The position numbers and the translations under genes were made by a program. A stretch of 64,000 bases of DNA from an uncultured Opitutaceae bacterium (GTDB lineage Bacteria; Verrucomicrobiota; Verrucomicrobiia; Opitutales; Opitutaceae), in assembly GCA_903890485.1 (NCBI GenBank), contig CAITBM010000132.1:1-64000 (forward strand). Reading direction: 5' to 3'. The notes under the pieces were generated by a model. It ran no database searches, was not told the origin of the DNA, and saw only the letters and a program-made list of their open reading frames with translations. This document shows, piece by piece, positions 1-14,935 of the stretch (positions are counted from its first letter, which is position 1; each line of letters opens with the position of its first letter).

Positions 1-302
1 GGGTGCCTCTCGACGCTCTTCGGCCACGTGATCGCGGGGTGCTTCATCGGGATCGAGTCATGGTAGATGGCGGCCACCCGGCAGGGCTTCCTCTCCAGGA
101 AATCGGCGAATCCGGGCCGCTCCGCCTCCGAGAAAAGCTCCGGGGTCAGGATCCAGTCCGAGGCCTTGGCCTCGGAGGCGATCTCCGGCCAGAGCAGCGG
201 CCGGGCCCTCGCCCCCAGCTCCTCCAGGAGGCGACGGCTCACGCGGGCAAGCCCCGAGGCGTGCTTCCAGGCCGAGGCGCTCGTGGTGTCAAAGAGGATC
301 AT
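1..302 (-). CDS. Glycosyltransferase, N-terminal part (runs off the window)
   Basis: The first 100 or so residues are visible; the gene continues past the left edge. The reverse strand reads MILFDTTSASAWKHASGLAR at the start and later a stretch AAIYHDSIPMKHPAITWP. That layout (an early DTTS-x-H-x-SGL block, then YHD-x-IP-x-KHP) resembles the N-terminal half of GT-B glycosyltransferases; this is recalled from the family, not searched. Its ATG overlaps the stop of the upstream glycosyltransferase by four bases (ATGA), so the two are almost certainly co-translated. Substrate unknown. Confidence 0.6.
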   Translation of the reverse strand, partial: MILFDTTSASAWKHASGLARVSRRLLEELGARARPLLWPEIASEAKASDWILTPELFSEAERPGFADFLERKPCRVAAIYHDSIPMKHPAITWPKSVERH

Positions 303-1510
303 GCCTTGGCAACGGCCTCCATGCGCTTCAGGAGCTTGTCCGTGTTCACCCGGACGTCGAAATTTTCCTCGATCCACGCCCGCGCCGCCCTGCGCAGCGC
401 CTCGCAGCAGGCGTCGTCGGAGGACATGCGCCTGAGGGCGACGGCCCAGGCCTCCGGATGGTCCACGGGCAGCACGACCCCGGTCACCCCGTCGGTCACC
501 GCCTCCGTGGTCCCCGCCGCGGGCGATGTGATCACGGGAACCCCCGCCGCCATCGCCTCGCCGATCACGTTCGGCAGGCCGTCCTGGTCCCCGCTCGGCG
601 CCACCACCCCCGTGTGGAGCAGGACGTCCGCCCAGTCCAGGTGTCCCCAGACCTCGTGCGAGGGGACCTGCCCGGTGAAGGTCACGCGGTCACCCAGGCC
701 CAGGTGGCCGGCCAATTTCTCAAGCTTCTGGCGAAGGGGCCCGTCGCCGACGATGCGCGCCTCAAAGGCGAGGCCGGAGGCCTTCATCGCCGCGTAGACC
801 CTCAGCTGGCGGTCGAGGCCCTTCTTCTCCACGAGCCGGGCCACCGAGAGGACGTGGAGCGGGACCCGGGAGGCGTGAAGCGGCTTGAGGGTCGGGAGGC
901 GCTCCAGGCCGCTCCGGATGCAGACCACCTTGGCGGGCTCGAGCCCTCGCGCGATGAGCGCCTGCCGGGCGAGCTCCGTCGACGTGTGGACCAGCACGGC
1001 GTGCTGAAGCTTGTCGATCAGCCACCAGTCGCCGCCGTGCTCAAAAACATCGTAGGCGTGGGCCCCCGCCGAGAATCGGCGGCCGTCCATCCTCCAAAAT
1101 AGCCAGGCGGCCGTTGCCGGCGCCCCGCTCCATGCGGCATGGGTGAGGCCGGGCGGGTTCTCGCGGAAATTGCGCGCGTAGACGCAGGCGAATCCGGCCC
1201 CAAGCATGTTCTCCCAGAAATTGAGCCAGGACGGCGCCCTGCGCGTCACCAGGCCCCGCAGGAGCTGCTTCATGATGTCGGGCTTTCGGTAGGTCTCGTA
1301 GGGAATGAGCCAGAAAAGCTGCAGGAGCTTCCACTTGTTGAATGACTCCACCCGGATGCCGCGGAACATCCCCCCTCCTCCCCACATCGAGAAGATCCTC
1401 AGCTTCACCCCCCGGGCCCTCATCGCGGCTATCTCCCGCTGCAGGAACATCTCGGTCGTCTTAGGGAACGTCGTGAAGAGGTAGGTGATTGCGGGACCTT
1501 CGGAGTTCAA
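299..1510 (-). CDS. GT4-family glycosyltransferase
   Basis: A 403-residue GT-B fold glycosyltransferase, probably cytoplasmic or peripheral at the inner membrane, transferring a sugar from a nucleotide donor. The C-terminal half has the GT4 signature: LSVARLVEKKGLD, then IVGDGPL, then DGLPNVIGEAMAAGVPVI, which carries the acidic donor-binding block, then G-T-TEAVTDGVTG. The only usable start for the full length is a TTG at 1510, because a TAA lies a few codons upstream in frame. It is followed by another glycosyltransferase with a four-base overlap. The acceptor could be a lipid, an exopolysaccharide or a protein glycan; nothing in the sequence decides this. Confidence 0.8.
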   Translation of the reverse strand: MNSEGPAITYLFTTFPKTTEMFLQREIAAMRARGVKLRIFSMWGGGGMFRGIRVESFNKWKLLQLFWLIPYETYRKPDIMKQLLRGLVTRRAPSWLNFWENMLGAGFACVYARNFRENPPGLTHAAWSGAPATAAWLFWRMDGRRFSAGAHAYDVFEHGGDWWLIDKLQHAVLVHTSTELARQALIARGLEPAKVVCIRSGLERLPTLKPLHASRVPLHVLSVARLVEKKGLDRQLRVYAAMKASGLAFEARIVGDGPLRQKLEKLAGHLGLGDRVTFTGQVPSHEVWGHLDWADVLLHTGVVAPSGDQDGLPNVIGEAMAAGVPVITSPAAGTTEAVTDGVTGVVLPVDHPEAWAVALRRMSSDDACCEALRRAARAWIEENFDVRVNTDKLLKRMEAVAKA

Positions 1511-1604: not shown

Positions 1605-2345
1605 ATGATGCGTTCAAACCCTTATTCGATGAATTACTATCGCCGAAGCGAACTCACAGCCGACGTTGCCGGCGTGCTTGCTCGCTACGACGAAACGGCC
1701 CGCCGGTTCGTGGGTCAGGATTACCGCCACCCGCTCAGGATGAGAGACTGGGAACTCGCCCGGGTGCTCGAGGCCGTACGGGCGGTCCCCGTGGGCTCAA
1801 GCATCCTCGACACCGGATCCTTCAACACCTACCTCGCCCTGGTGCTGGCGTCCTACGGGTACAGGATGACCGCCTCAGACCTGATCTGGAGGAGGCTGGT
1901 GAAGAGCCTTGAGCGGCGCTTTGCGCTGGCGCCCAAAAAGGCCACGGAAGCCCCCTTCTTCGAGTGGCTGGGAGTCTACCGCAAGGCGAGGGTGCCGGTC
2001 CGCAACCTCAATCTGACTCGGCTCAGGTGCCCGGATTCCGCCTTCGACTGCGTGGTCGCCCTCTCCGTGATCGAGCATGTGCCCCAGGTTGAGCGCGCCC
2101 TTGCGGAAATGTACCGCGTCCTGGCCCCCGGCGGGCGGCTCCTGATCACGACCGACTGCGCCCCAAAGCCCGTTGCCTACACCAACGGCGTCAGGTATTT
2201 CTCCGAGTCCGAGATCGAGGCGCTCTTTAGGCCCTACCCGGTCACCTCGCGCAGGAATTCGCCGGATTTCTCCCGCGAGAACTGGTGCTACGGAGCGAGC
2301 CAGCCCGTGGTCACCGCCTTCATCGAGGTCACAAGACCCCGGTAA
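1605..2345 (+). CDS. Class I SAM-dependent methyltransferase
   Basis: About 246 residues from the ATG at 1605; a GTG at 1569 and a later ATG at 1629 are alternative starts. The SAM-binding motif I appears as SSILDTGSFNTYLAL. The acidic residue after strand 2 is in MTASDL, and the post-I segment is FDCVVALSVIEHVPQVERAL followed by VLAPGGRLLIT. This is the Methyltransf_11 type of small-molecule or glycan methyltransferase. It lies between glycosyltransferases and converges on the next gene with a 17-base overlap. Methylation of a sugar or polyprenyl-linked intermediate is plausible from context only. Confidence 0.75.
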   Translation: MMRSNPYSMNYYRRSELTADVAGVLARYDETARRFVGQDYRHPLRMRDWELARVLEAVRAVPVGSSILDTGSFNTYLALVLASYGYRMTASDLIWRRLVKSLERRFALAPKKATEAPFFEWLGVYRKARVPVRNLNLTRLRCPDSAFDCVVALSVIEHVPQVERALAEMYRVLAPGGRLLITTDCAPKPVAYTNGVRYFSESEIEALFRPYPVTSRRNSPDFSRENWCYGASQPVVTAFIEVTRPR

Positions 2346-3555
2346 AGGGCGGCATCGAGTGCGGCCTGAAGGCGAGCCGGGTCGGCTTCTCGTCGGCAAC
2401 CGAGGCCCCTAGCCCCACCAACTCGTCGATCAGGACGGTCGGGTCCTCCTCGTAGCGCAGCCTGAGAAAATTGTCCCGCATGCGGATGTAATCCTCGGGC
2501 TTGGTGAGCCACGAACCGATGATCCGGTCAAAGTCCTCGCCGGACTCGATCTTGTCGGAGGCAGCGCCGTTCCGGAGGTACTTCCAGGTGAGCTCCTCCT
2601 GGGGCATGATGCCGCCGACCGCGTTGAAGATGATCGGGCACTTGAAGTGGAGGGCCTTGGCGCAGGTGGTCGTCCCCCCGCGGGTCACGATCACGTCGCT
2701 CACCTGCATCAGCAGGTGGACGATCTCGGAGTAGCCCTCGACGTAGCAGTTGAATTCCGGGTGGTTCGCCCGCCAGTGGACCAGGTCATTGTAGGCCTGC
2801 TTGTTCCTGCCGCAGATGACGATCGCCTGGCAGCGGTCGGCCCGCTTCACCAGGGCCGGGAGAAGGTCGAAGTGGTTGTTGGCCCCGTTGCCCCCGGTGG
2901 CCAGGAAAACGGTGAAGAGGTCGGGCCGCAGCCCGAGCCTCTCCTCGCGGAAGATCCCCCGCTCCTGGGGCACAACGGTCTCAAAATGGGCGTGCGGATG
3001 CATCAGGTACCCGCGAACTCGGGCCTTGTCCGGGGTGATCCCCTTCTTGATGGCGTAGTCCTGTGCCGTGGGAGTCCGTGAGAAATACATGTCGACTGTC
3101 GGCTCGATCCAGTTGCGCGAGTAGCCCCAGCCCCCGGAGAACTCACCGCAGTAGGTCGCGCACTTCACCCTGCCCTCGCCCAGGATCTTCCGGGCCAATT
3201 GGAAATAGCCGCGGTTCAGGCAGTCGTGGACGCTTAAGACCAGGTGCGGCCTGTACTCCTTCAGGACGTTCACGTAGTAGCGCCTGCCGAAGGAAACCGT
3301 GTCCTTGTTCAGGATGCTCTGGAGCTCGACAAAGGCGTAGAACGCCTTGTGCACCCAGGGTGCGCTCGCCTGGATCTTGTTGTAGAAGTTGACCCCGGCC
3401 CGGTTGAAGACCGAAGAGTTCTCCAGCATCTGCTCGATCCGCACGTCGACGTCGTGCTTGTAGAGCTGGAAGCACCAGTCCGCAAAGGCCTCGGCCCGGG
3501 CGTCGTGGCCCCCACCGGTGGAGGAGGTGAGAACAAGGATGCGGACTTTGGACAT
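2329..3555 (-). CDS. MGDG synthase-like / processive diacylglycerol glycosyltransferase
   Basis: A 408-residue GT28-type enzyme. The N-terminus MSKVRILVLTSSTGGGHDAR has the glycine-rich GGGH block typical of MGDG-synthase N domains. The C-terminal half has FLATGGNGANNHFDLLP and VSDVIVTRGGTTTCAKAL, the UDP-sugar-binding region of GT28/MurG-like enzymes. The family adds glucose or galactose to diacylglycerol on the inner membrane leaflet. Reading in the same direction just upstream are a ketosynthase and an ACP-dehydratase, so a glycolipid with a special acyl chain is a fair inference. It could also act on another lipid acceptor. Confidence 0.75.
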   Translation of the reverse strand: MSKVRILVLTSSTGGGHDARAEAFADWCFQLYKHDVDVRIEQMLENSSVFNRAGVNFYNKIQASAPWVHKAFYAFVELQSILNKDTVSFGRRYYVNVLKEYRPHLVLSVHDCLNRGYFQLARKILGEGRVKCATYCGEFSGGWGYSRNWIEPTVDMYFSRTPTAQDYAIKKGITPDKARVRGYLMHPHAHFETVVPQERGIFREERLGLRPDLFTVFLATGGNGANNHFDLLPALVKRADRCQAIVICGRNKQAYNDLVHWRANHPEFNCYVEGYSEIVHLLMQVSDVIVTRGGTTTCAKALHFKCPIIFNAVGGIMPQEELTWKYLRNGAASDKIESGEDFDRIIGSWLTKPEDYIRMRDNFLRLRYEEDPTVLIDELVGLGASVADEKPTRLAFRPHSMPPFTGVL

Positions 3556-3655: not shown

Positions 3656-4915
3656 TCAGGCACGCCTCAGGAGCAGCGCGACGTTCGCCCCACCAAAGCC
3701 GCTGCTGTTCTTTAGGACGACCTTCGGGGACTGGTTCACGGTCGCGCGCAGGATGTTCAGTCCCTCGCACGCGGGGTCCAGGTTGCTGATATGGGCGGAG
3801 CCGGGCATGAAGCCCTCGCGCATGAGCAGCGCGCTAAAGCCCGTCTCCATTGCCCCCGCAAGCGAGAGCCCGTGGCCCGTCAGGGACTTGGTGCTGCTGA
3901 TCGCGGGCCTAAACCCCAATTCCCCGAAGACGGACTTGAGCGCACGCGCCTCGGATATGTCCCCGATCAAAGTCGAGGTCGCGTGGGCGTTTACATAGTC
4001 TACCTCGGCCGCCGAGATGCGGGTCGCCTTGAGGGCGTTTTCCATAGCGGTCTTCGAGCCCGTGCCATCCGGGTGCGAGATCGCGACATTGTAGCCGTCG
4101 GAGGCCTGGCCCCAGCCGGCCAGCTCGCAGTAGGGTGTGACCCCGCGCCGCGCCACCTCGTCCTCGCTCTCGAGGACCAGGACCGTCCCACCCCCCGTTC
4201 CCACGAACCCGTCGCGCGCCACGTCAAAGGGCCGGGAAGCCAGGTTGGGGTCGGTCTGGAGCGAGAGCGTCCGCATCCCCGCAAAGGGAAGGATCGCGTC
4301 CCGGTTGCCGTCCTCGCCCGCGGCGATGAACATCCGCTTCTGGCGGCCGAGTGAAATCTCGTCATGGGCATATGCGAGCGCATGGGCCGAGGATGCGCAG
4401 GCCGAGGAAAACCCGCACGAGGCGCCCTGGATCTTGAAGGCCGCCACCAGGTTGAAGTTGAGCGTGCCCACGATGGAGGCCACGATCCCTAGCGGCGAGC
4501 ACCGGGCTGGGCCCAGTTTGAGCATCCGCTCGTGGTGGTAGTAGGTGAGCATCGGCGAACCCCCGGACGCCGCAAAGAGGCCCGTGTCCGGGTTCGAGAT
4601 ATCCGACTCAGCCAATTTCGCGTCGGCCACGGCCTGGATCATCGCGCAGTGCGCGAAGAGGCCGTGCGGGGCCATCGAGCGGATGGTTTCCCGCTTGATC
4701 GCGTACCTGGATGGGAATGTCCAGTCCTCGGGGTCAACCGAGTCCGTGGAGAACCCCTTGATGGTGCCAATCACCTTGCACGCGATGTCGGGCTTCTGGA
4801 AAGGCGGGTAGAGCTCGAACCCATGACGCTGCTCGCGCAGGCTCGCCGCAACGCTCGATGCGTCGTTACCTATGCTCGTTACAAATCCAAGGCCGGTAAT
4901 GAAGACTCTGGGCAT
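3656..4915 (-). CDS. Beta-ketoacyl-ACP synthase (KAS I/II type)
   Basis: A 419-residue condensing enzyme starting at ATG 4915. The full Cys-His-His triad is visible: Cys173 in SSACASSAHAL, His311 in NAHATSTLIGD and His348 in TKSLTGHGLSLAG. It should condense malonyl-ACP with an acyl-ACP. It is not in a fab operon. Its upstream partner is a fused ACP-dehydratase and its downstream neighbour a lipid glycosyltransferase. That makes a dedicated role in a special acyl or polyene chain more likely than bulk fatty-acid synthesis. No ketoreductase, acyltransferase or enoyl reductase is in the window, so those would have to come from elsewhere. Confidence 0.88.
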   Translation of the reverse strand: MPRVFITGLGFVTSIGNDASSVAASLREQRHGFELYPPFQKPDIACKVIGTIKGFSTDSVDPEDWTFPSRYAIKRETIRSMAPHGLFAHCAMIQAVADAKLAESDISNPDTGLFAASGGSPMLTYYHHERMLKLGPARCSPLGIVASIVGTLNFNLVAAFKIQGASCGFSSACASSAHALAYAHDEISLGRQKRMFIAAGEDGNRDAILPFAGMRTLSLQTDPNLASRPFDVARDGFVGTGGGTVLVLESEDEVARRGVTPYCELAGWGQASDGYNVAISHPDGTGSKTAMENALKATRISAAEVDYVNAHATSTLIGDISEARALKSVFGELGFRPAISSTKSLTGHGLSLAGAMETGFSALLMREGFMPGSAHISNLDPACEGLNILRATVNQSPKVVLKNSSGFGGANVALLLRRA

Positions 4916-4970: not shown

Positions 4971-5945
4971 TCAGGCGTTGATCGCGACCCGCAGGGGCGG
5001 AGTCTCCGAGGGCTGCACCTCGGGAGCGGGTTGGCCGGCACTCTCCACTGCCGCCGGGGCAACCGCTGATTCGACGTAGGCAAAGGTGAGCGTGATATCC
5101 TCGGCGATTACCGCCTTCTCCTGGCCGACGCGGATCGCCCCCTCAAAGGTCGCCAGCGGCATCTTCATGCGCTTCGGCTTGATCGAGAGGGTTAGGATGT
5201 CACCGGGCTTGCACATGCGGTGGGCGCGAACGCCCTCGCATCCCGTGAAGAAGATCGTGTTGGAACCGATGGCTTTGCCGGGCTCGGTTGAAGCGCCCTC
5301 GAGCAGGTAGAGGACCGCCAGCTGTCCCAGGGCCTCGAGCATGATCGAGGCCGGCATGATCGGGTTGTCCTTGAAGTGACCCTGGAGGAAGAACTCCTGG
5401 CCGGTGATCTTGTACTTGCCGTTGGCTCCCGTGGAACTGACCGAGGCCTCGTTCAGGAACAGGAACGGAGGCTGGACCGGCATCACCGCACCGATGTGCT
5501 CGATCGGCAGGAACTTGGTCGGACGCGGCAGGGGCAGGCCCCTGATCTTGCAGTCGATGAAGGTCTTTACGTCGCCGACAGTCCGCAGGTTGCGCAACTC
5601 GTCGTTGTTGATCGTCAGCTGCAGGACGTCCTCAACCAGGATCACGATCTCCATCATCGTGAGGGAGTCGATGCCCAGGTCCTCGATCAGCCTGAGGTCA
5701 TCGTCGGCATCCTTTAACTTCGACCTCAAATCCGGCTCAACAAAGCGCTCAATCACGCCAATGACCACCGCGGGCATATGGTCCGCGTTGCCCGTCTTCC
5801 TGAACTGGACGGCAGCCTCAAAAGTCGAGGGCGAGCACCGTTTCAGCGCCTCGCGGAGTGCCGCGTCGTCATCGGGGGCAAACGGCTTGGTGGCAAGCGT
5901 TAAGGTCTTGTTTGCACCCGGGTTGGATTGGACTGGGTCTGGCAT
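4971..5945 (-). CDS. Acyl carrier protein fused to FabA/FabZ-like dehydratase
   Basis: A 324-residue two-domain protein. After a variable first 55 residues comes an ACP domain (about 58-135) with the phosphopantetheine site DLGIDSLTMME, Ser94. A hot-dog dehydratase follows (about 145-300) with LQGHFKDNPIMPASIMLEAL: His190 and Glu204 match the FabZ catalytic pair. The C-terminal tail is Pro/Ala/Glu-rich. In most bacteria these two activities are separate proteins. The gene is transcribed toward the ketosynthase 55 bases downstream. I infer that the fused pair hands 3-hydroxyacyl chains directly to the dehydratase for a dedicated pathway. Confidence 0.85.
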   Translation of the reverse strand: MPDPVQSNPGANKTLTLATKPFAPDDDAALREALKRCSPSTFEAAVQFRKTGNADHMPAVVIGVIERFVEPDLRSKLKDADDDLRLIEDLGIDSLTMMEIVILVEDVLQLTINNDELRNLRTVGDVKTFIDCKIRGLPLPRPTKFLPIEHIGAVMPVQPPFLFLNEASVSSTGANGKYKITGQEFFLQGHFKDNPIMPASIMLEALGQLAVLYLLEGASTEPGKAIGSNTIFFTGCEGVRAHRMCKPGDILTLSIKPKRMKMPLATFEGAIRVGQEKAVIAEDITLTFAYVESAVAPAAVESAGQPAPEVQPSETPPLRVAINA

Positions 5946-6127
5946 CTGTCTCTATTTGTATGTTACGATAGGCAATAAAGTAAAACCATTTCTTAGCCGC
6001 GAAACCCTCCCCAATGGAGGCCAAAGCGGTGTCTCATTTGTTGGGAACGGTTTGCAAGAGCGCGGTACGGTAACCGAGCTTGATAATGCGTGTCCTAGAC
6101 CATAGCCCTTACTCTCCAACCCGCTCA
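5946..6127. promoter_or_regulatory. Divergent intergenic region, AT-richer, probable promoters
   Basis: About 180 bases separate the ACP-dehydratase and the glycosyltransferase, which read away from each other. The part from about 5950 to 6000 is markedly AT-richer than the surroundings and probably holds the promoter for the ketosynthase operon. No -35/-10 pair with correct spacing stands out, so this is a location call only. Confidence 0.35.
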
Positions 6128-7285
6128 ATGAGCGCACCTTCACTTGCAAAGCCAGCCTCCCCCGTATTCCTCATCACCCATGAGTTCTACCCGGTCAGTG
6201 GGGGGATAGCCACCTTCGCCGAGGAGATCGCCAAGGCCTCGGTCAACCTGGGCTATGACGTGGAGGTCTGGGCCCAATCCGCACCGGCCGGCGTGGAGAA
6301 GAAGTGGCCCTTCAAGATCCGGCGGCTTCCGCTCAAGGGTAGCCACGACCTCATCTGCCAGATCAAGCTGGCCCGCCAGCTGGTGGCCCGGCGCCGGGAG
6401 CTGCGCAACGCCACCGTATACCTGCCGGAGCCGGGGCCGATGCTGGCCATGATGATGCTCCAGTTCTTCAAGGCGTTTCGGCCCAGGCGCCTGGTCCTCA
6501 CGTTCCACGGGACGGAGATCCTCAACTTCGCCCGGAGCCCGCTTAGGCGCTGGCTTGCCGGGCGCCTGATCCGGCATGCGACCCGGATCAGCACCCTCAC
6601 GACCTACACGCAGGAGCTGCTCCTCGAGCGATTCCCCCATGCGGCGGAGAAGACATTCCTTACCCCGGGCGCCCTGCGCTCGGACTTCGCCGTCGTCCAC
6701 GAGCGGGCCGCCAGGACCCAGGCGAAGATCGTCGTCCTCACGGTGGGCCGCCTCCATCCGCGCAAGGGACAACTGATCACGCTCAAGGCGCTCCAGATGC
6801 TCTCCGAGGACGTGCGCACCCGGATCGAGTATTGGATCGTGGGAGGGCGCAACAAGGGCAACTACGAGGAGCTCCTGCGGAACCAGGCCGCGCTTGATCC
6901 CACTCTTGCCGTCCGCTTCTTCGGGAACATCCCCGACGAGGAGCTGGCCGACGTCTACAACCGCGCGGACATCTTTGCCCTCACCAGCGTGGCCCACGGG
7001 AGCAGCGTCGAGGGCTTTGGCCTCGTTTACCTCGAGGCGGCAGCCCATGCGCTCCCTATCGTGGCCCATAAGGTCGGCGGGGTCTCCGAAGCCGTCCGCG
7101 ACGGAGTGACGGGATTCCTGGTCACCCCGGAGAGGCCCGCGGAGCTCGCCGCCGCCTTTGAGAAGTTGATTCACGACGCCGCCCTTCGCCGCCAGTTTGG
7201 GGTGGCGGGCCGGATCTGGGCCTTGCGCAACCGATGGGAGGAGAACGCCTCCACTCTCTTTTCCAAGGCGGAGGACCTCGGGTGA
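6128..7285 (+). CDS. GT4-family glycosyltransferase
   Basis: About 385 residues from ATG 6128; an ATG at 6086 and a TTG at 6080 are possible earlier starts. The N domain has FLITHEFYPVSGGIATFAEE, the usual G-G-x-x glycine loop. The C domain has VLTVGRLHPRKGQ, YWIVGGRNKGNYEE and SVEGFGLVYLEAAAHALPIV, the E-x7-E region of GT4 enzymes. It should transfer a sugar from a nucleotide donor to a lipid or glycan acceptor. Its stop overlaps the GTG start of the thioesterase by four bases, so sugar transfer and acyl handling are translationally coupled here. Confidence 0.82.
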   Translation: MSAPSLAKPASPVFLITHEFYPVSGGIATFAEEIAKASVNLGYDVEVWAQSAPAGVEKKWPFKIRRLPLKGSHDLICQIKLARQLVARRRELRNATVYLPEPGPMLAMMMLQFFKAFRPRRLVLTFHGTEILNFARSPLRRWLAGRLIRHATRISTLTTYTQELLLERFPHAAEKTFLTPGALRSDFAVVHERAARTQAKIVVLTVGRLHPRKGQLITLKALQMLSEDVRTRIEYWIVGGRNKGNYEELLRNQAALDPTLAVRFFGNIPDEELADVYNRADIFALTSVAHGSSVEGFGLVYLEAAAHALPIVAHKVGGVSEAVRDGVTGFLVTPERPAELAAAFEKLIHDAALRRQFGVAGRIWALRNRWEENASTLFSKAEDLG

Positions 7286-7692
7286 TCCAGTCGCGCGTGA
7301 AGGTCACGGTCCGGTACGCCGAGACCGACATGATGGGCATCGTCTACCATGCCAACTACCTTCCCTGGTTCGAGGTGGGCAGGACCACGCTTCTAAAGGA
7401 GATAGGGGTCCCCTACCGCCAGCTCGAGGAGGAGGGCTTCCGCCTGCCCGTGCTCGAGGTGTCCGCCAAGTACCTCAGGCCCGCCGTGTACGACGACACG
7501 GTTGAGATCCTTACGATCCTAAGGGAGAAGCCGCTTCTAAGAATCCGTCTCGACTACGAGGTGCGCCGCGGAGACGAGCTCCTGGCCACCGGCTCAACCG
7601 TGCACGCCTTCGTGGACCGCAGCGGCCGGCCGGTGAGGCCGCCGGCCTGGGCCTCGGAAAAGATACAGACCGTTTTTGCGCAATCCGACTAG
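7282..7692 (+). CDS. YbgC/FadM-type acyl-CoA (or acyl-ACP) thioesterase
   Basis: A 136-residue hot-dog thioesterase starting at GTG 7282, inside the GTGA overlap with the glycosyltransferase. Family motif RYAETDMMGIVYHANYLPWF is clear, with the catalytic Asp at residue 16 and the conserved His at 24. The family hydrolyses acyl-CoA or acyl-ACP thioesters. Placed beside the ketosynthase/ACP-dehydratase genes, it could release or proofread the acyl chain. A tol-pal role, as for YbgC in enterobacteria, is less likely because no tol genes are near. It converges with uxaC with a four-base overlap. Confidence 0.85.
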   Translation: MIQSRVKVTVRYAETDMMGIVYHANYLPWFEVGRTTLLKEIGVPYRQLEEEGFRLPVLEVSAKYLRPAVYDDTVEILTILREKPLLRIRLDYEVRRGDELLATGSTVHAFVDRSGRPVRPPAWASEKIQTVFAQSD

Positions 7693-9107
7693 GGCCCGAA
7701 CGAGGGATCGACCTCAAGGCCGAAGAATCCCCTCGCGTTCTCGAAGGCGATCCTGCGGACCATGCCGCCCACCAGGGCCATGTCCCCCGGCAGCTCGCCC
7801 CGCTCCATCTGGGAGCCGAGGAGGTTGCAGAGCACCCGCCTGAAGTACTCGTGGCGCGTGTAGCACAGGAAATTGCGGGAGTCGGAGAGCATGCCGACAA
7901 AGCGGCTGAGGAGGCCCAGGTTGGCCAGGGCGCTGATCTGCCACTCCATCGCCTCCTTCTGGTCCAGGAACCACCAGCCGCTTCCGAACTGGACCTTGCC
8001 CGCGACCGAGCCGTCCTGGAAGTTCCCCGCCATCGTCGCGAAGACGTAGTTGTCCGCCGGGTTCAGGTTGTAGATCACCATCCGGGGCAACTGGCCGGTC
8101 GTGTCCAGGGCGTCCAGGTACCGGGCGAGCGGCCGCGCCTGCGGCAGGTCCCCGATCGAGTCAAAGCCCGTGTCGGGACCAAGCTTGGAGAGGAGGCGGG
8201 TATTGGTGCTCCGGAGCGCCCCCAGGTGGAGCTGCTTGGTCCAGCCGCGGTGGGCGTCCCAGTGGCCAAAGGCTAGCATGAGGTACGATCCGAACCGGGC
8301 GCTCTCCTCGGGCGTCGCGCCCCGGCCCGATCGAGCCGCCTTGAACACCGCCTGGGCCTGCGCCTCAGTGCAGGGTTCGCTAAGGGCCGTCTCGAGACCG
8401 TGGTCGGAGAGCCTGCATCCGAACGCATGGAACGCATCGTGGCGGCTCTTCAGTGCGTCCATGAAGTCGCCGAAGGACTTGATCTTGCTGCCCACGGTGT
8501 GGGCGAGGCGTTCCACCCAGGGGTTGAAAGCCTCGGGATGGGCGACCCCGAGGGCCTTGTCGGGCCTGAAAGCCGGGTAGACACGGGTCTTTATCCCGAG
8601 GCCCCGGATCCTCTCGTGGGTTGAAAGGGAGTCGGCCGGGTCGTCTGTCGTACAGACGACGGCCACCTTGTTTGCCGAGAGGATGTCGTGGACCCTCAGC
8701 GACGGAAGCCGGGCGTTCGCGCGCTCCCAGATCGCAGGCGCGGATTGCGTGTTGAAAATCTCCTCAATCCCGAAGTAGCGCTTCAGCTCGAGGTGAGACC
8801 AGTGGTAGAGCGGGTTGCCGACGAGGTGGGGCATCGCGGCCGCCCACGCCATGAATTTCTCGTGGGGGGTTGCGTCCCCCGTGCAGAAGCGCTCGTCGAC
8901 CCCATTGGCCCGCATCGCGCGCCACTTGTAGTGGTCCCCGCCAATCCAGATGTCCGCCAGGTCGGAGAACTGGTGGTTGTCGGCGATCTGCTGGGGCGAC
9001 ACGTGGCAGTGGTAGTCGAAGATCGGCTCCGGCTTGGCATAGCCGTGGAAGAGCTCCCGGGACGCCCCGGTCTGGAGAAGGAAATCGTCGTGGATAAAGG
9101 GCTTCAT
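7689..9107 (-). CDS. uxaC: Glucuronate (uronate) isomerase
   Basis: A 472-residue member of the UxaC amidohydrolase-fold family, the usual length. It isomerises D-glucuronate to D-fructuronate and D-galacturonate to D-tagaturonate, in the cytoplasm. It starts [20 protein letters not shown] and has the metal site FDYHCHVSPQQIADN. The C-terminal signature covers GMLSDSRNFLCYTRHEYFRR. The open frame extends upstream of 9107, but the ATG chosen overlaps the stop of uxaE by four bases and gives the family N-terminus. It is the last gene of the SDR-uxaE-uxaC operon. Confidence 0.95.
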   Translation of the reverse strand: MKPFIHDDFLLQTGASRELFHGYAKPEPIFDYHCHVSPQQIADNHQFSDLADIWIGGDHYKWRAMRANGVDERFCTGDATPHEKFMAWAAAMPHLVGNPLYHWSHLELKRYFGIEEIFNTQSAPAIWERANARLPSLRVHDILSANKVAVVCTTDDPADSLSTHERIRGLGIKTRVYPAFRPDKALGVAHPEAFNPWVERLAHTVGSKIKSFGDFMDALKSRHDAFHAFGCRLSDHGLETALSEPCTEAQAQAVFKAARSGRGATPEESARFGSYLMLAFGHWDAHRGWTKQLHLGALRSTNTRLLSKLGPDTGFDSIGDLPQARPLARYLDALDTTGQLPRMVIYNLNPADNYVFATMAGNFQDGSVAGKVQFGSGWWFLDQKEAMEWQISALANLGLLSRFVGMLSDSRNFLCYTRHEYFRRVLCNLLGSQMERGELPGDMALVGGMVRRIAFENARGFFGLEVDPSFGP

Positions 9108-10945
9108 CGGGAGATTTCCTCGAGAAATTCCTCGTAGGTTTTGATGCGGGAGAGGAGCCGGGTGACCGCAGCGCAGCGCTCGCGTCCGACCAGGCCCGTA
9201 TGCTCCGCGAGAAAGACCATGTACGAGGCCACCCCCTTTGAATACAGGAGCCGGGCCTCCGGGCTTATGGCGTAAAAACGAGCGCGCTGGGCGTAGCCGG
9301 CGGGCGAGTGATCGCCCAGGGCCGCCTTCTCCGGCCGGCCTCCCGAGGCCAGGACATAGAGGAAGTTGTACTCGAAGAAGAACATGTTGTCGGGGCTTTC
9401 CGGCAGGGCCTCCAATGCCCGGCGGCAGGCCGCCGGCGAGTCGAACACACCCTCGTCCCCCGCCCCACCCAGGGACGCGGAGATAAAGCTCCGGGCCATC
9501 CGGCTCTCGGTCGGATCGGCGCTGAAGGCGCCGGCCAGGGCAAGCTCGAGCGTGAAGCGGTACCAGTCCCTCCAGAGCGCGCGGTCGCCCGCGTTTCCGG
9601 AATTGTAGAGTGCAAGCCCCATCTCGTACGTGTAGCGGCCGCTGGTCTTGATCTCCAGGCGCCCGCCCGTCACCTCCCCCATCACCTCGTAGTTGGCCGC
9701 GGATTTCCCGGAGCCCGAATGGAAGCCGATGCTGACGCCAAACTTCTCGGCCACGCGCCACTGCTTCTCGATCAGCACCTTCAGCCCCGCGTTGTCGGGG
9801 TACGGCATGTTCTTCTGGAAGCCGAACGCGGGGGCGATGAAGGCGACCGGCATGCCGAGCTCCTCACAGAGGGCCAGCATGACCGCCGTGGTCTCCGGGG
9901 TCGTCAATCCCGGCAGTTCGTCAATGGAGAGCTCTCGAAGGTACCGCCGGCCGACGGCGGTTGTGAAGGCGCGCTCCCGGGCCTCCCGGTACCGGTCGTC
10001 GCGCCGCTTCATCTTGTTGACGGCAGGCCACACCGCGCAAAGGAGGGTGTTGAGGGCTTCGGTCTCCAGGACAAGCCCCGCCTGGCCCACCCGGGCCCGG
10101 ATCCGCGCGATAAGGCCCGGGTCGATCTCCGAGAGGGAGGCCGGGCGCTTGGTCGCCAGCTCCGGCGAGAGGTCGAAGGTGATGTAGCTCGCCAGGAGAC
10201 AGCCCCGGACAAGCGCCTCCTCCCGGATGTCAAAGGCACCGCCGATCGGCTGGTGGTCGGCATTGAAGCTCCAAGCTATCCGCCGGCGATGGAAGCCGGT
10301 CTTGAGTTTCGAGAGCACCGAGCCGTGGCTCATGCCTTCGACGCTCTGGCCCTGGTGCCCCTCCGGGACATTGGTCCCGATGAAGGGAAACGGCACCGTG
10401 TCCAGGCGGTTCTCAAGCATCGCATCGACGTCGTAGACGAGCTCCCTCGGGATGCTGTTCTGGTTCGCCGTGACCCCGAGTTCCAGGGCGCTCATCGCCC
10501 ACTCGACCGCCGGCCAGTGAAGTGTCGTGAACCGGGCGCCCATCCCGAGGGTCCCTTTCCCCAGATTTCCCGCCATGGACGGGAACAGGGTGGAGTCGGG
10601 ATCAAACTCCTGGACGAGATTCTTCAGGAACAGGAGGTTCTCCCAGGTCGCGGGGAAATAGAATCCGGTCTTTCCTGCGATGCCGTCGACCAGCATGCCC
10701 AGGGCTCCGCTTGCCTTGGTTTCAAGCCTCCAGGCGCAGTCCCCGGTGGCCTTGTCCTCGACCAGCGACCAGGACCCGGCCGCCGTCGAGAAAACCGACT
10801 TGGGATGCTCCACCACCCCCGCCGTTTCCCCAAGGGCTAGCTTCTTGCCGAGGGCCTTCCAGTCGAGGCAGAAGTCCGGGCTCACGCAGGGATTGCCCGC
10901 TATCCGGATTCCGTTTCCCAAGAGAAACCGGTTGATGGCTCTCAT
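9104..10945 (-). CDS. uxaE: Tagaturonate epimerase
   Basis: A 613-residue protein that I assign to the UxaE family, which interconverts D-tagaturonate and D-fructuronate and so bypasses the altronate branch (UxaB/UxaA). Recognisable blocks are [20 protein letters not shown] near the C-terminal third, [20 protein letters not shown], and [18 protein letters not shown] in the middle. The start at 10945 overlaps the SDR stop as ATGA, and its own stop overlaps uxaC in the same way. Context is decisive: with UxaC and a fructuronate reductase, both galacturonate and glucuronate would funnel into fructuronate. Confidence 0.8.
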
Positions 10946-11730
10946 ATGCTCATCGAGTTGTAACCGCCGTCCACCACCAGCTCCGTTCCCGTGATGAAGG
11001 AGCCCGACCCCTCGGCCGCGAGGAGGAGGGCCGCCCCGACCAGCTCCGCTGCCGATCCGAAGCGACCCATGGGCGTGTGCCCGAGGATGCTCTTCACCCG
11101 GTCGGGGTTGAGGACCTTGCGGTTCTGCTCGGCCGGGAAGAAACCCGGGACCAGGGTGTTTACCCGCACCTTGTGCGGGGCCCATTCCCGGGCCAGGTTT
11201 TTCGAGAGGTTGTGCACGGCGGCCTTGCTCGCCGAGTAGGTGAAGACCCGGGAAAGGGGCACGATTCCCGACATGGATCCCAGGTTGATGATCGACCCAC
11301 CCTTTCCGGACTCGGTCAGGTGCCTGCCGAAGACCTGGCAGCCCAGGAAAACGGACTTGAGGTTCACATCGAGGATCCGCTCAAACTCGTCCTCCTTGAT
11401 GTCGAGGAACGGTGTCGGGGAGTTTGTGCCCGCTCCGTTCACCACGACATCCACCCTGCCCGATCGGGCGAGTACGGCCGCCAGGAGCCCCTCAAGATCC
11501 GCCTTGCTTGGGGCCTCGGCGGCGTGGAACCAGGCCTTGCCCCCTATTTCCTCGATGGCCTTGATGCGGACCTGGGCCTTTTCGGGATTGCGACCCACGA
11601 GGACCACCTCGGCCCCGGCAGCGGCAAACCCCTGCGCTATGGCGCCGCAGAGTTCACCGGTTCCGCCAATTACGACGGCCACCTTGCCGGTCAGCCCAAA
11701 CAGGTTAGCGAGATACGTTTCAGTCTTCAT
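10942..11730 (-). CDS. SDR-family fructuronate reductase (D-mannonate oxidoreductase)
   Basis: A 262-residue short-chain dehydrogenase. The nucleotide loop is [17 protein letters not shown], the NAG block is [10 protein letters not shown], and the catalytic Ser-Tyr-Lys lies in [20 protein letters not shown] plus the following Lys. It ends with the common [10 protein letters not shown]. In this operon it most likely reduces D-fructuronate to D-mannonate with NAD(P)H, as SDR-type UxuB proteins do. It is the first gene of the minus-strand uronate operon, facing iclR across a 64-base gap with a double dyad. Another uronate-derived keto acid could be the true substrate. Confidence 0.82.
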
Positions 11731-11759
11731 GAGGCGCGAGGTAAGGGGTAGAGCTGATT

Positions 11760-11790
11760 TTCACTAATGAACTTGCAATTCATAGGTGAA
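11760..11790. promoter_or_regulatory. Twin TTCA-N4-TGAA dyads, candidate IclR operator
   Basis: Two copies of a 12-base dyad, TTCACTAATGAA at 11760-11771 and TTCATAGGTGAA at 11779-11790, are separated by 7 bases around a TTGCAA core. The two copies are also inverted repeats of each other at 10 of 12 positions. They fill the divergent gap between the SDR-uxaE-uxaC operon and the iclR gene, the expected place for an autoregulated operator. The right copy covers the possible GTG start at 11786, which favours the ATG at 11795 for iclR. Confidence 0.6.
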
Positions 11791-11794
11791 CGAT

Positions 11795-12679
11795 ATGCTC
11801 AGCAACAAGAAAATAGTCCGACCCGGTAGCTACCCCTTTTTTGACGGAATGCCCACCCTTCAATTGCGAGCCCCGATCCGCCCGACCCTGAAAGCGCCCC
11901 TGCCGACGGCATCCCTGGAGCGCTACGTCATCCCCAATCTGCGCAACGCGTGCCGGGTGCTCAAGCTCCTCCGGGGACACCCCGGCGGCCTGAAGGCCTC
12001 GGACCTGGCACGGATGCTCGGCATCCCGGTCACCACCACGATGAGGATCACGGCGACCCTCCAGATCGAGGGCCTTGCGAGCAAGAGCGACGGCCGCTAC
12101 CGGCTTGGTCCGGCGCTCATCCACCTGGGGAACGCCGCCCTTGCGGGCACGGATATACGGAAGGTGGCCCTTCCCCTCCTGGAAAAGCTCACCCAGGAGA
12201 CCGGCGAAACCTCCCACCTGGCCGTGCCGTGCAACGAGCGCTCCCTGATCATCGCGGTCCAGGACAGCCCTCACACCCTGCGCGCAGTTTCGCCCGCCGG
12301 TTTCCTGACCGACCTGCACAGCAGCTCCACCGGCAAGATCTTCCTCGCCTATGTCTTTCGCGAGCAGTTTCCCCAATTTCACGCCTCGGAAGCGCCGTAC
12401 AAGCACACGGCGCGAACCCTCACAAAGCGCAGCGACCTCGAAAGGGAGATCGAGGTGACCCTTAAGCGCGGCTACAGCATCGACAACGAGGAATGCCACA
12501 TGGGCGTTCGCTGCGTGGCGGCACCCATCTTCTCCTCTGACGGCCATGTGGTGGCGGCCATCGGCATCACCGCGGCCACCCTGCGGCTCTCGGGAAAGCG
12601 CGTGGCGGAGGTCGCGGCAAAGGTTCGCGCCGTGGCAGGCGAGGCCTCCCAACTCCTCGGCTACGCCGGAACCGAATAA
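11795..12679 (+). CDS. IclR-family transcriptional regulator
   Basis: About 294 residues. A winged-helix domain (about 42-110) reads RNACRVLKLLRGHPGGLKAS, then LARMLGIPVTTTMRITATLQ, typical of IclR N-domains. The C-terminal effector domain has LEKLTQETGETSHLAV, LHSSSTGKIFLAYV and ECHMGVRCVAAPIFSSDG. Such proteins usually bind a small carboxylic acid; here KDG or a uronate derivative is the likely effector, by analogy with KdgR. The gene heads the plus-strand half of the uronate regulon and probably controls both directions through the dyads just upstream. An unusual N-terminal extension of about 40 residues precedes the HTH. Confidence 0.88.
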   Translation: MLSNKKIVRPGSYPFFDGMPTLQLRAPIRPTLKAPLPTASLERYVIPNLRNACRVLKLLRGHPGGLKASDLARMLGIPVTTTMRITATLQIEGLASKSDGRYRLGPALIHLGNAALAGTDIRKVALPLLEKLTQETGETSHLAVPCNERSLIIAVQDSPHTLRAVSPAGFLTDLHSSSTGKIFLAYVFREQFPQFHASEAPYKHTARTLTKRSDLEREIEVTLKRGYSIDNEECHMGVRCVAAPIFSSDGHVVAAIGITAATLRLSGKRVAEVAAKVRAVAGEASQLLGYAGTE

Positions 12680-12706
12680 CCCCCTCCCTCCTATTCCCTT
12701 CCTCCC

Positions 12707-13804
12707 ATGCCCGACACCTACTGCATCATCCCCGAGGCCCAGCACAACCTCCTGACCGAGGCCGCCTATCGGCACAGGGGTTACACCGCCGACGAAGCCG
12801 CCGATGGCGCGCGCCTTTGCGCGGAGGCCTCCCGCCACGGGATCCGCACCCACAACGCGATCAAGGCCCTCCACCTCGACCACCTCTTTGGCTCCGGATC
12901 CAAGGGATGCGTCCCCGGCGCCCGGATCGAGGAGATCCCCTCGCGCTTTCCAGCAAGCAAGACCTGGAACGCGAACAAGAAGCTCGGGCAGTCAACAGCC
13001 TACCGCGCCATGGACGCCGCCATCGCGCTCGCCGACACCTACGGGGTTGGCACCGTATCCGTGGACAATGCGTTCCACTACCTCTGGGGCGGCGGGTATG
13101 TCCTGGACGCCGCGCGCCGAGGGTACCTCGCCTATACGAACTGCACCGCGGCGCTCGCGGAAGTGGTGCCTTTTGGCGGGAAGTTCCCGACCCTTGGCAC
13201 CAATCCCCACTCCTGGGGATTTCCCACCACGGATGCCGTCGGGTTCCCCATCGTGATCGACTGGGCAACCTCGGTGATCGCGATGGGCAGGGTGCAGCAG
13301 CTCAAGCGGGAGGGACTGCCGCTCCCGCCCAACGCCGCGCTCGACAAGAATGGAAACCCCACCGTCGATCCCCACCAGGCCACCTCGCTTCTCCCCTTTG
13401 GGGCGCACAAGGGCTACGGGCTTTCGCTGATCAACGAGCTGGTGGGCGGCTTTATCGGGGGCTCGCTTCCAACGCTTCGCAGCCGATGGGCGGAGAGGCC
13501 GGAGGAAAAGCACACGTGCAGCTTCTTCTTCCAGGTCATTCATCCCGACGCGATCAGCGGAGGAGCCTTCGCCAAGGGACGCAACCAAGCTGCCAATGTT
13601 AAGGCCGTGATCGAGGACATCCTCGGGCACGGCAACGAGAAGTGCGTCCTGCCCGGCGAGCCCGAGGCCAAATGGGCCAAGAGGTGCGCGGAGGCCGGCG
13701 GACTCCTCTTCACCGAGGCCGAGGTCGAATCCTTCAACGAGCTGGCCGCCGAGGCGGGTGTGCCCCGGTGGTCGCGCTCGGCCGCGCAGTCGATAGTGAT
13801 CTGA
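12707..13804 (+). CDS. Malate/L-lactate dehydrogenase family (Ldh2) oxidoreductase
   Basis: A 365-residue NAD(P)H-dependent dehydrogenase of the Ldh_2 family, distinct from the Rossmann lactate dehydrogenases. Visible family blocks are SRHGIRTHNAIKALHLDH, GTNPHSWGFPTTD, the phosphate/cofactor region FPIVIDWATSVIAMGRV, and LLPFGAHKGYGLSLINELVG. Relatives reduce 2-oxo acids, including 2,3-diketogulonate and ureidoglycolate. Being 27 bases after iclR and before kdgK, it probably reduces a sugar-acid intermediate in uronate catabolism. The exact substrate cannot be read from sequence. Confidence 0.78.
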   Translation: MPDTYCIIPEAQHNLLTEAAYRHRGYTADEAADGARLCAEASRHGIRTHNAIKALHLDHLFGSGSKGCVPGARIEEIPSRFPASKTWNANKKLGQSTAYRAMDAAIALADTYGVGTVSVDNAFHYLWGGGYVLDAARRGYLAYTNCTAALAEVVPFGGKFPTLGTNPHSWGFPTTDAVGFPIVIDWATSVIAMGRVQQLKREGLPLPPNAALDKNGNPTVDPHQATSLLPFGAHKGYGLSLINELVGGFIGGSLPTLRSRWAERPEEKHTCSFFFQVIHPDAISGGAFAKGRNQAANVKAVIEDILGHGNEKCVLPGEPEAKWAKRCAEAGGLLFTEAEVESFNELAAEAGVPRWSRSAAQSIVI

Positions 13805-13837
13805 GATCCCCAACCGCCCACTCCTTTCTTTATCCCC

Positions 13838-14935
13838 ATGAGTCTCAAAATCCGACCCCCATCCGAATGCGCCCTCGACCAGCTCTCGCTTGGTGAGGTG
13901 ATGCTCCGACTCGATCCCGGCGAGGGAAGAATCCGCACCGCCCGCGCCTTCACGGCGTGGGAGGGCGGCGGCGAATACAACACCTCCCGAGGCCTCCGCA
14001 AGTGCTTCGGCCTGCGAACCGCCGTGTGCACCGCCTTTGTCGACAACGAGGTCGGCCACCTGATCGAGGATTTCATCATGCAGGGAGGAGTCTCGACCGA
14101 GTTCATCCGGTGGCGCCAGGACGACGGCATCGGAAGGACGGTCCGCAACGGGCTCAATTTCACCGAGCGCGGGTTCGGACTTCGGGGAGCCGTGGGAGTG
14201 CCGGACCGCGGCAACACCGCAGCCTCGCAGCTCAAGCCAGGCGACTTCGACTGGGAGGAAATCTTCGGACGGCGCGGCGTCAGGTGGTTTCACACGGGCG
14301 GGATTTTCGCTGCCCTCTCGGAGTCGACAGCCGCGCTCACGGTCGAGGCGGTCAAGGCCGCCAAGAAGCACGGGACCATTGTTTCCTACGATTTGAACTA
14401 TCGCCCGTCCCTCTGGAAGACCATCGGGGGCCTAAAGAAGGCCCAGGAGGTGAACCGCGAGATCGCGCGCCACGTCGACGTCATGATCGGAAACGAGGAG
14501 GACTTCACCGCGTCGCTCGGGTTCGAGGTGAAGGGCGTCGACGAGAAACTGAGCCACATCGAGTCCGGCGCCTTCAAGGCGATGATCGAGACCGCGGTGG
14601 CCGCCTACCCTAACTTCAAGGTCGCGGCCACCACGCTGAGAAGGGTCATCACGGCGACCAAGAACGACTGGAGCGCCATACTCTGGCACGACGGCCTCTT
14701 TTATGAGAGCCGCAAGTACCCGGAGCTCGAGATCCTGGACAGGGTCGGAGGGGGCGACAGCTTTGCCAGCGGGCTCTCGTTCGGCTTTCTCTCAAAGAAC
14801 GACCCGCAGGCGGCGGTCGACTACGGCGCCGCGCACGGCGCCCTCGCGTCCACCACCCCCGGGGACACCTCCATGGCCACCCAGAAGGAGGTCGAGGCGC
14901 TCATGAAGGGCGGGAGCGCCCGAGTCGTTCGCTAG
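13838..14935 (+). CDS. kdgK: 2-Keto-3-deoxygluconate kinase (PfkB family)
   Basis: A 365-residue ribokinase-fold sugar kinase that should phosphorylate KDG to KDPG, the step before aldol cleavage. The N-terminus LSLGEVMLRLDPG and WEGGGEYNTSRGLRKCFG form the substrate site. IVSYDLNYRPSLW is conserved in KdgK proteins. The C-terminal PfkB signature with the catalytic Asp is DRVGGGDSFASGLSFGFL. It fits the uronate pathway exactly after mannonate dehydration, although neither the dehydratase UxuA nor a KDPG aldolase is in this window. Confidence 0.88.
   Translation: MSLKIRPPSECALDQLSLGEVMLRLDPGEGRIRTARAFTAWEGGGEYNTSRGLRKCFGLRTAVCTAFVDNEVGHLIEDFIMQGGVSTEFIRWRQDDGIGRTVRNGLNFTERGFGLRGAVGVPDRGNTAASQLKPGDFDWEEIFGRRGVRWFHTGGIFAALSESTAALTVEAVKAAKKHGTIVSYDLNYRPSLWKTIGGLKKAQEVNREIARHVDVMIGNEEDFTASLGFEVKGVDEKLSHIESGAFKAMIETAVAAYPNFKVAATTLRRVITATKNDWSAILWHDGLFYESRKYPELEILDRVGGGDSFASGLSFGFLSKNDPQAAVDYGAAHGALASTTPGDTSMATQKEVEALMKGGSARVVR

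Follow-up and report, generated by a model that had tools for sequence, protein, structure and literature searches.

Which pathway is served by a gene that joins an acyl carrier protein (ACP) and a FabZ-type dehydratase (DH) in one chain? Such a gene lies at 4971..5945 on the minus strand of the window, i.e. the whole 64,000-nucleotide stretch from an uncultured Opitutaceae bacterium that was analysed here. Its 324 aa translation contains DLGIDSL (Ser94) and GHFKDNPIMPASIMLEALGQ (His190, Glu204). The preliminary description, which left the strand unstated, had placed an ACP and a hot-dog dehydratase with these three residues in one frame, and in this it was exact. On the plus strand, the matching frame over 4971-5945 is interrupted by stops, and no Pfam match was found in the plus-strand frame 5404-6105, the one scanned of the frames at 5376-6105.

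The protein comprises three parts, all on the minus strand. A conserved N-terminal helical extension (residues 18-66; 5748..5894), delimited by alignment and an AlphaFold model, has an invariant Arg36-Cys37. It is followed by the acyl carrier domain (residues 67-135; 5541..5747; Ser94 codon 5664-5666), assigned by alignment and by Pfam PF00550 (PP-binding; residues 81-129, 27.8 bits against a cut-off of 20.8), and by the FabZ-type hot-dog dehydratase domain (residues 148-292; 5070..5504; His190 codon 5376-5378, Glu204 codon 5334-5336), assigned by alignment, structure matches and PF07977 (FabA-like; residues 161-279, 57.2 bits against 23). The AlphaFold model (mean pLDDT 83.1, pTM 0.62) was used per domain, with no weight given to the mutual placement of the domains. 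It displays helices at 24-135, two of them ahead of the PF00550 match, and a hot-dog fold over ~144-292; the structure prediction that had been suggested as a check thus returned a helical N-terminal half and a FabZ-like hot-dog C-terminal half (mean pLDDT 83). The carrier domain is recognizable as an ACP by the serine in its DSL motif and by the helical bundle of the predicted model. For the hot-dog part, FabZ structures are the closest according to Foldseek, and VIA-align gives Z up to 23.0 against FabZ and ~19 against FabA. FabA carries an Asp where FabZ has a Glu, and FabA identity is ruled out by the Glu and the lower Z. The domain shares with FabZ the fold and the catalytic His-Glu pair, including the 14-residue spacing that is typical of FabZ, but it is fused and reads GHFK..MPAS where FabZ usually has GHFP..MPGV. 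Scores against the NCBIfam FabZ equivalogs (66.1 of 113 and 60.8 of 155 bits) are below the cut-off, hence we call the dehydratase FabZ-type and not FabZ. The carrier half is likewise related to NCBIfam ACP models and under their equivalog cut-off. Because both halves miss these cut-offs, the fusion is regarded as a divergent, specialised version.

The fusion heads an operon with a ketosynthase (KS), a GT28 and two GT4 glycosyltransferases, all on the minus strand: a FabB-like beta-ketoacyl synthase (3656..4915; Pfam, NCBIfam and alignment), a GT28/MGDG-synthase-like glycosyltransferase (2329..3555; Pfam, NCBIfam), the GT4 glycosyltransferase GT4a (299..1510; Pfam) and the 5' end of a second one, GT4c (1..302), which is truncated by the contig end and whose start overlaps the GT4a stop (ATGA). 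A SAM methyltransferase (1629..2345, plus strand) belongs to a minority of relatives. Upstream of the fusion, an intergenic region (5946..6127) with a presumed promoter function separates two divergent operons; the other one starts on the plus strand with the divergent GT4 glycosyltransferase GT4b (6128..7285; Pfam), followed by a 4HBT/YbgC-like thioesterase (7282..7692). The adjoining stretch 7689-14935 holds a uronate-catabolism cluster with a glucuronate isomerase (UxaC family), a member of the tagaturonate epimerase (UxaE) family, a mannonate-oxidoreductase-like SDR, a malate/lactate-type dehydrogenase and a KDG-kinase-like gene.

FabB-type enzymes are the best matches of the ketosynthase, and Cys173, His311 and Lys343/His348 are kept in 31/31 aligned rows, including the Cys-His-His set of elongating KAS I/II enzymes. 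The cluster SDR of relatives, considered here as a possible 3-ketosphinganine reductase, has no close homologue in the window's genome (best 34%); its top NCBIfam scores are for generic oxidoreductases, KdsR reaches 90.6 of 400 bits, and FabG is among its PDB matches. KS and SDR are genes of their own, so KS, KR, DH and ACP are not combined in one chain as in a type I PKS. The earlier comparison with a "mini-PKS" was therefore overstated, and the set is better described as a type II module in which a single gene is fused.

The same neighbourhood, which the preliminary description had not considered, recurs among relatives. AroK and QueG come first, then the thioesterase and GT4b on the strand opposite to the fusion, then the fusion, KS, often SDR, GT28, sometimes the methyltransferase, GT4a and GT4c, and these are faced by a gene for a serine palmitoyltransferase (SPT)-like enzyme. 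Across the best 80 of 319 loci, some of which overlap (L106 and L107 look identical) and many of which lie on contigs that end early, GT4b and the thioesterase were each found at 78, KS at 75, GT28 at 71, AroK at 61, QueG at 60, SDR at 51, GT4a at 49, GT4c at 48, the SPT-like gene at 32 and the methyltransferase at eight; the same-strand arrangement fusion-KS-[SDR]-GT28-GT4a-GT4c with a convergent SPT-like gene is present at 32. These best 80 loci are titled Opitutaceae, Opitutae/Opitutia, Opitutus, Cephaloticoccus, Verrucomicrobiia or Verrucomicrobia/-ota. Synteny inside Opitutaceae is partly due to descent. Three genomes from families outside the order also have the fusion: in G303 and G131, the fusion, KS, SDR, GT28, GT4 and SPT-like genes share one 20-kb stretch in rearranged order, with no AroK/QueG flank detected at these loci, and in G063 the fusion is ~70 kb from the SPT-like gene. 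At two loci (L142:14000-15661 and L143:2324-3985), a 553-aa protein is encoded ahead of the SDR, and the L142 copy matches an SMC/RecN-type ATPase domain.

The best PDB match of the SPT-like enzyme is the Sphingobacterium SPT (E 1e-85). In a 34-row tree, the SPT-like enzymes form one long-branched clade (support 100/100) that falls within the group of Sphingobacterium, Sphingomonas and E. coli SPTs (99/94), with Kbl and BioF of E. coli outside it; the long branches of BioF and of a G047 row come together in this tree. A BioF or Kbl identity is ruled out by the grouping with SPTs. Against the NCBIfam SPT equivalogs, the enzyme scores 351 of 640 and 315.7 of 500 bits; since these cut-offs are missed, it is called SPT-like only, i.e. 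a putative SPT, with serine as its presumed amino acid substrate. No SPT-like gene was found in the 144 contigs of the window's genome; the oxoamine synthase that this genome does encode (contig C68) clusters with Kbl of E. coli. Relatives have the SPT-like gene directly past GT4c; the window contig stops inside GT4c, so the gene would fall off the contig, and its absence reflects either assembly loss or true absence.

The module and the SPT-like gene tend to occur together. Among 288 genomes sampled from the phylum, with SPT-like matches counted from 580 bits and seven weaker ones (337-406 bits) excluded, 28 genomes have both, five have the module only (G000, G055, G056, G209, G274), one has the SPT-like gene only (G204) and 254 have neither. 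The relatives sample of 57 genomes, which overlaps with the phylum sample, contains 42 with both, six with the module only (G000, G004, G022, G051, G055, G056), one with the SPT-like gene only (G052, a genome half complete) and eight with neither. Fisher tests yielded 1e-32 and 1.5e-5, values that ignore shared descent. Both genes are on one contig in 21 of the 42 genomes in which both were located, at ≤ 10 kb in 20; in the 21st (G017) they are 1.25 Mb apart. Three of the five module-only phylum genomes belong to a single genus whose ACP and DH are separate. The three sampled genomes of genus g44 have KS and separated ACP and DH but lack the SPT-like gene, and genus g49 comprises one genome with both genes and two with neither.

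Taken as a whole, the cluster points to a pathway, so far unstudied, that makes glycosylated, sphingolipid-like lipids of the membrane. We give an even chance to the reading that the fusion supplies the dedicated carrier and FabZ-type dehydratase of a type II module that feeds the SPT-like enzyme in making such lipids. A specialised elongation module, apart from housekeeping fatty-acid synthesis, would lengthen or shape an acyl chain on its own carrier: the FabB-like KS would condense, the cluster SDR (or housekeeping FabG where the SDR is missing) would reduce, the fused dehydratase would take out water and a housekeeping enoyl reductase would complete the cycle. The carrier, or a product of it, would then serve the SPT-like alpha-oxoamine synthase to give a sphingoid-base-like head, to which the GT28 and GT4 enzymes of the cluster would attach sugars. 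For this we infer that both carrier and dehydratase work, that the SPT-like enzyme receives its acyl chain from the fused carrier and joins it to serine, and that sugars are attached to the product. More tentatively, and with the greater chance of being wrong, we suggest a dissociated fatty-acid/polyketide-like line in which the chain is built on the dehydratase-joined carrier and handed over on that same carrier. Opitutaceae and related Verrucomicrobiota would in this way make a new class of glycosylated sphingoid lipids, and would do so without the ceramide synthase known from bacteria. If so, chain building and sphingoid-base formation would be wired through one private carrier, and glycolipids are predicted in Verrucomicrobiota known mostly from metagenome-assembled genomes. 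Several observations count against the proposal. In G020, G024 and G269, SDR-GT28-GT4a-GT4c-SPT are kept together with fusion-KS elsewhere; G204 has ACP, KS, SDR, GT4a and SPT-like genes with no dehydratase attached to or adjoining the carrier; and no lipid analysis of the bacteria concerned was seen in the literature consulted. The lack of an SPT-like gene and of a close SDR homologue in the window's genome, the module-only genomes and the low equivalog scores of the long-branched SPT-like clade count on the same side.

The strongest competitor, unlikely though to be taken seriously, is that ACP-DH and KS produce an unusual fatty acid destined for a different lipid, such as an AcpXL-like very long or hydroxy chain of lipid A or a glycosyl lipid, and that the SPT-like gene is a neighbour with a separate role. 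The rhizobial AcpXL-FabZXL-FabF1XL-FabF2XL-LpxXL cluster, as described in PMC5613085, resembles our locus in having an ACP, a FabZ and a ketosynthase devoted to a special chain. The module also occurs without the SPT-like gene in G051, G055, G056, G209 and G274, and in G051 a Kdo-transferase-like gene follows KS. However, ACP and FabZ are separate in the rhizobial cluster, whereas our locus combines them and has an SPT-like gene and glycosyltransferases in relatives; neither an LpxXL-like acyltransferase nor a second KS was seen among the annotated conserved cluster genes. The tight co-occurrence with the SPT-like gene, which includes the three families outside the order, also argues against this reading.

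Two described systems provide partial precedents for this pathway. In Rhodobacteria, SPT with a dedicated ACP is established through the AcpR/AasR/SPT genes (Caulobacter CC_1162-1165; E. coli BL21), which likewise encode a specialised carrier together with the SPT (PMC9386255). According to that source, the rhodobacterial carrier is a protein of its own that an acyl-ACP synthetase loads, whereas ours is fused to a dehydratase and accompanied by a KS; the two carriers are weakly alike (12/40 identical). An AasR-like protein was found in 11/57 relatives (E ≤ 1e-20) and is absent from the window genome. In Pseudomonas fluorescens MYb115, SPT is coupled to a PKS: in the SgaAB polyketide-sphingolipid cluster, as reported in PMC12134224, the chain-building synthase SgaA, a type I PKS that works iteratively, is coupled to an alpha-oxoamine synthase of the SPT type and to a reductase resembling KDSR. 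The locus described here differs in its separate type II-like genes, the single ACP-DH fusion and the at least three glycosyltransferases. For the order and place of the steps in ceramide synthesis, we relied on PMC11087976. A YghO-type (Caulobacter/E. coli-type) ceramide synthase is present in just 2/57 relatives, so we assign no N-acylation enzyme; in the window genome this enzyme is absent, which leaves the canonical pathway (Spt, bCerS and CerR) without its YghO/bCerS member there. In G021 (L170) and G009 (L171), a YghO-type homologue lies near a second SPT-like gene, and in G021 these are adjoined by an AasR-type acyl-AMP-ligase homologue. Bacterial sphingolipid producers are increasingly recognised far beyond the classic groups, and PMC11334938 reports that Spt-like genes commonly lack the known partners in their vicinity, with Spt-like genes in 22 Verrucomicrobiota MAGs from the Black Sea and cases without co-located bCerS/CerR in other phyla. 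The present cluster gives one Spt-like lineage a testable gene set of carrier-dehydratase, ketosynthase, reductase, SPT-like enzyme and glycosyltransferases.

It is improbable that the fusion is an ordinary FabZ with a tethered carrier that locally boosts housekeeping fatty-acid synthesis. Its fold and catalytic residues are those of FabZ, and fused FabZ proteins are known: LpxC-FabZ (NF009667), encoded on contig C124 of the same genome, also joins a FabZ domain to another enzyme, although its partner is a deacetylase and not a carrier. Yet that bifunctional LpxC-FabZ and the housekeeping ACP (contig C6) are encoded elsewhere in the window genome, the fusion diverges from the housekeeping FabZ models, and 255 of the 288 phylum genomes have no match at E ≤ 1e-40. 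The 33 genomes with a match comprise 23 from the same family, seven more from the order and three from other families of the class. A plasmid search with the fusion returned 37 records, none reaching 80% query coverage, with similarity chiefly to the dehydratase half among the matches listed. This ACP-DH fusion was not named in the literature listings found, which covered few subscription papers and does not prove its absence.

We consider it very doubtful that the dehydratase domain is non-catalytic and serves to hold the carrier in place for KS or the SPT-like enzyme, an arrangement that might be suggested by G204, where the carrier, KS, SDR and SPT-like genes come without a dehydratase. Ser94, His190 and Glu204 are invariant in 28/28 aligned fusions, and across 13 close-relative pairs dN/dS, where defined, is ~0.004-0.15 for the N-terminal part, the ACP and the DH, and ~0.01-0.15 for the DH domain alone. 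These values indicate strong purifying selection on all three parts; the C-terminal tail, at 0.16-0.68 over the same pairs, drifts.

Both domains fall in one match in 44/57 genomes of the relatives sample, and in 40 of the 57 a single stop-free frame with both domains was extracted and read directly; the fused state of G024, G037, G038 and G039 was taken from the match table instead. Five fused genomes (G015, G016, G025, G032, G040) are single-contig. Independent assemblies thus give the same single frame, and the joining error or frameshift named beforehand as a possible refutation has practically no chance of being the explanation, even with split versions in some relatives. Separate ACP and DH matches were obtained in four further relatives (G017, G047, G051, G055). 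The two are separate adjacent genes in G017, G047, G055 and G274, are divided by an in-frame TAA in G209, and in G051 the DH and an ACP sit on different contigs. A ketosynthase tree with some weak branches, which does not include G047 (its short contig has no ketosynthase), places split forms within or next to groups of fused ones; the families serving as outgroup have the fusion, and four state changes are counted, an ACP-only row included. This placement disfavours fusion as a recent state: the fused state is likelier to be the older one, with the splits arising by secondary fission. The splits in G017, G047, G055, G274 and G209, together with G204 without a dehydratase, speak against the covalent link being essential; as fission is found in several lineages, the tether between ACP and DH may be useful but dispensable. 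These cases leave the earlier idea of a chain carried straight to the attached dehydratase only partly supported; such delivery in cis may occur.

Carriers and fusions outside the usual setting were also observed. The fusion of G022 (L042:7858-8748) had no KS or glycosyltransferase neighbours detected, in a genome without an SPT-like gene. L155:10674-11126 encodes an ACP with the same N-terminal extension as the fusion, straight ahead of the ketosynthase (9390-10670), at a locus with SDR, GT4 and SPT-like genes and no dehydratase, possibly a DH-less version of the pathway. The window's own genome has a stand-alone carrier paralogue on contig C26 (L002:1501-1923) with 55% identity to the ACP half of the fusion; it has the same N-terminal extension without a dehydratase, and ACP-only copies resembling it are present in other relatives.
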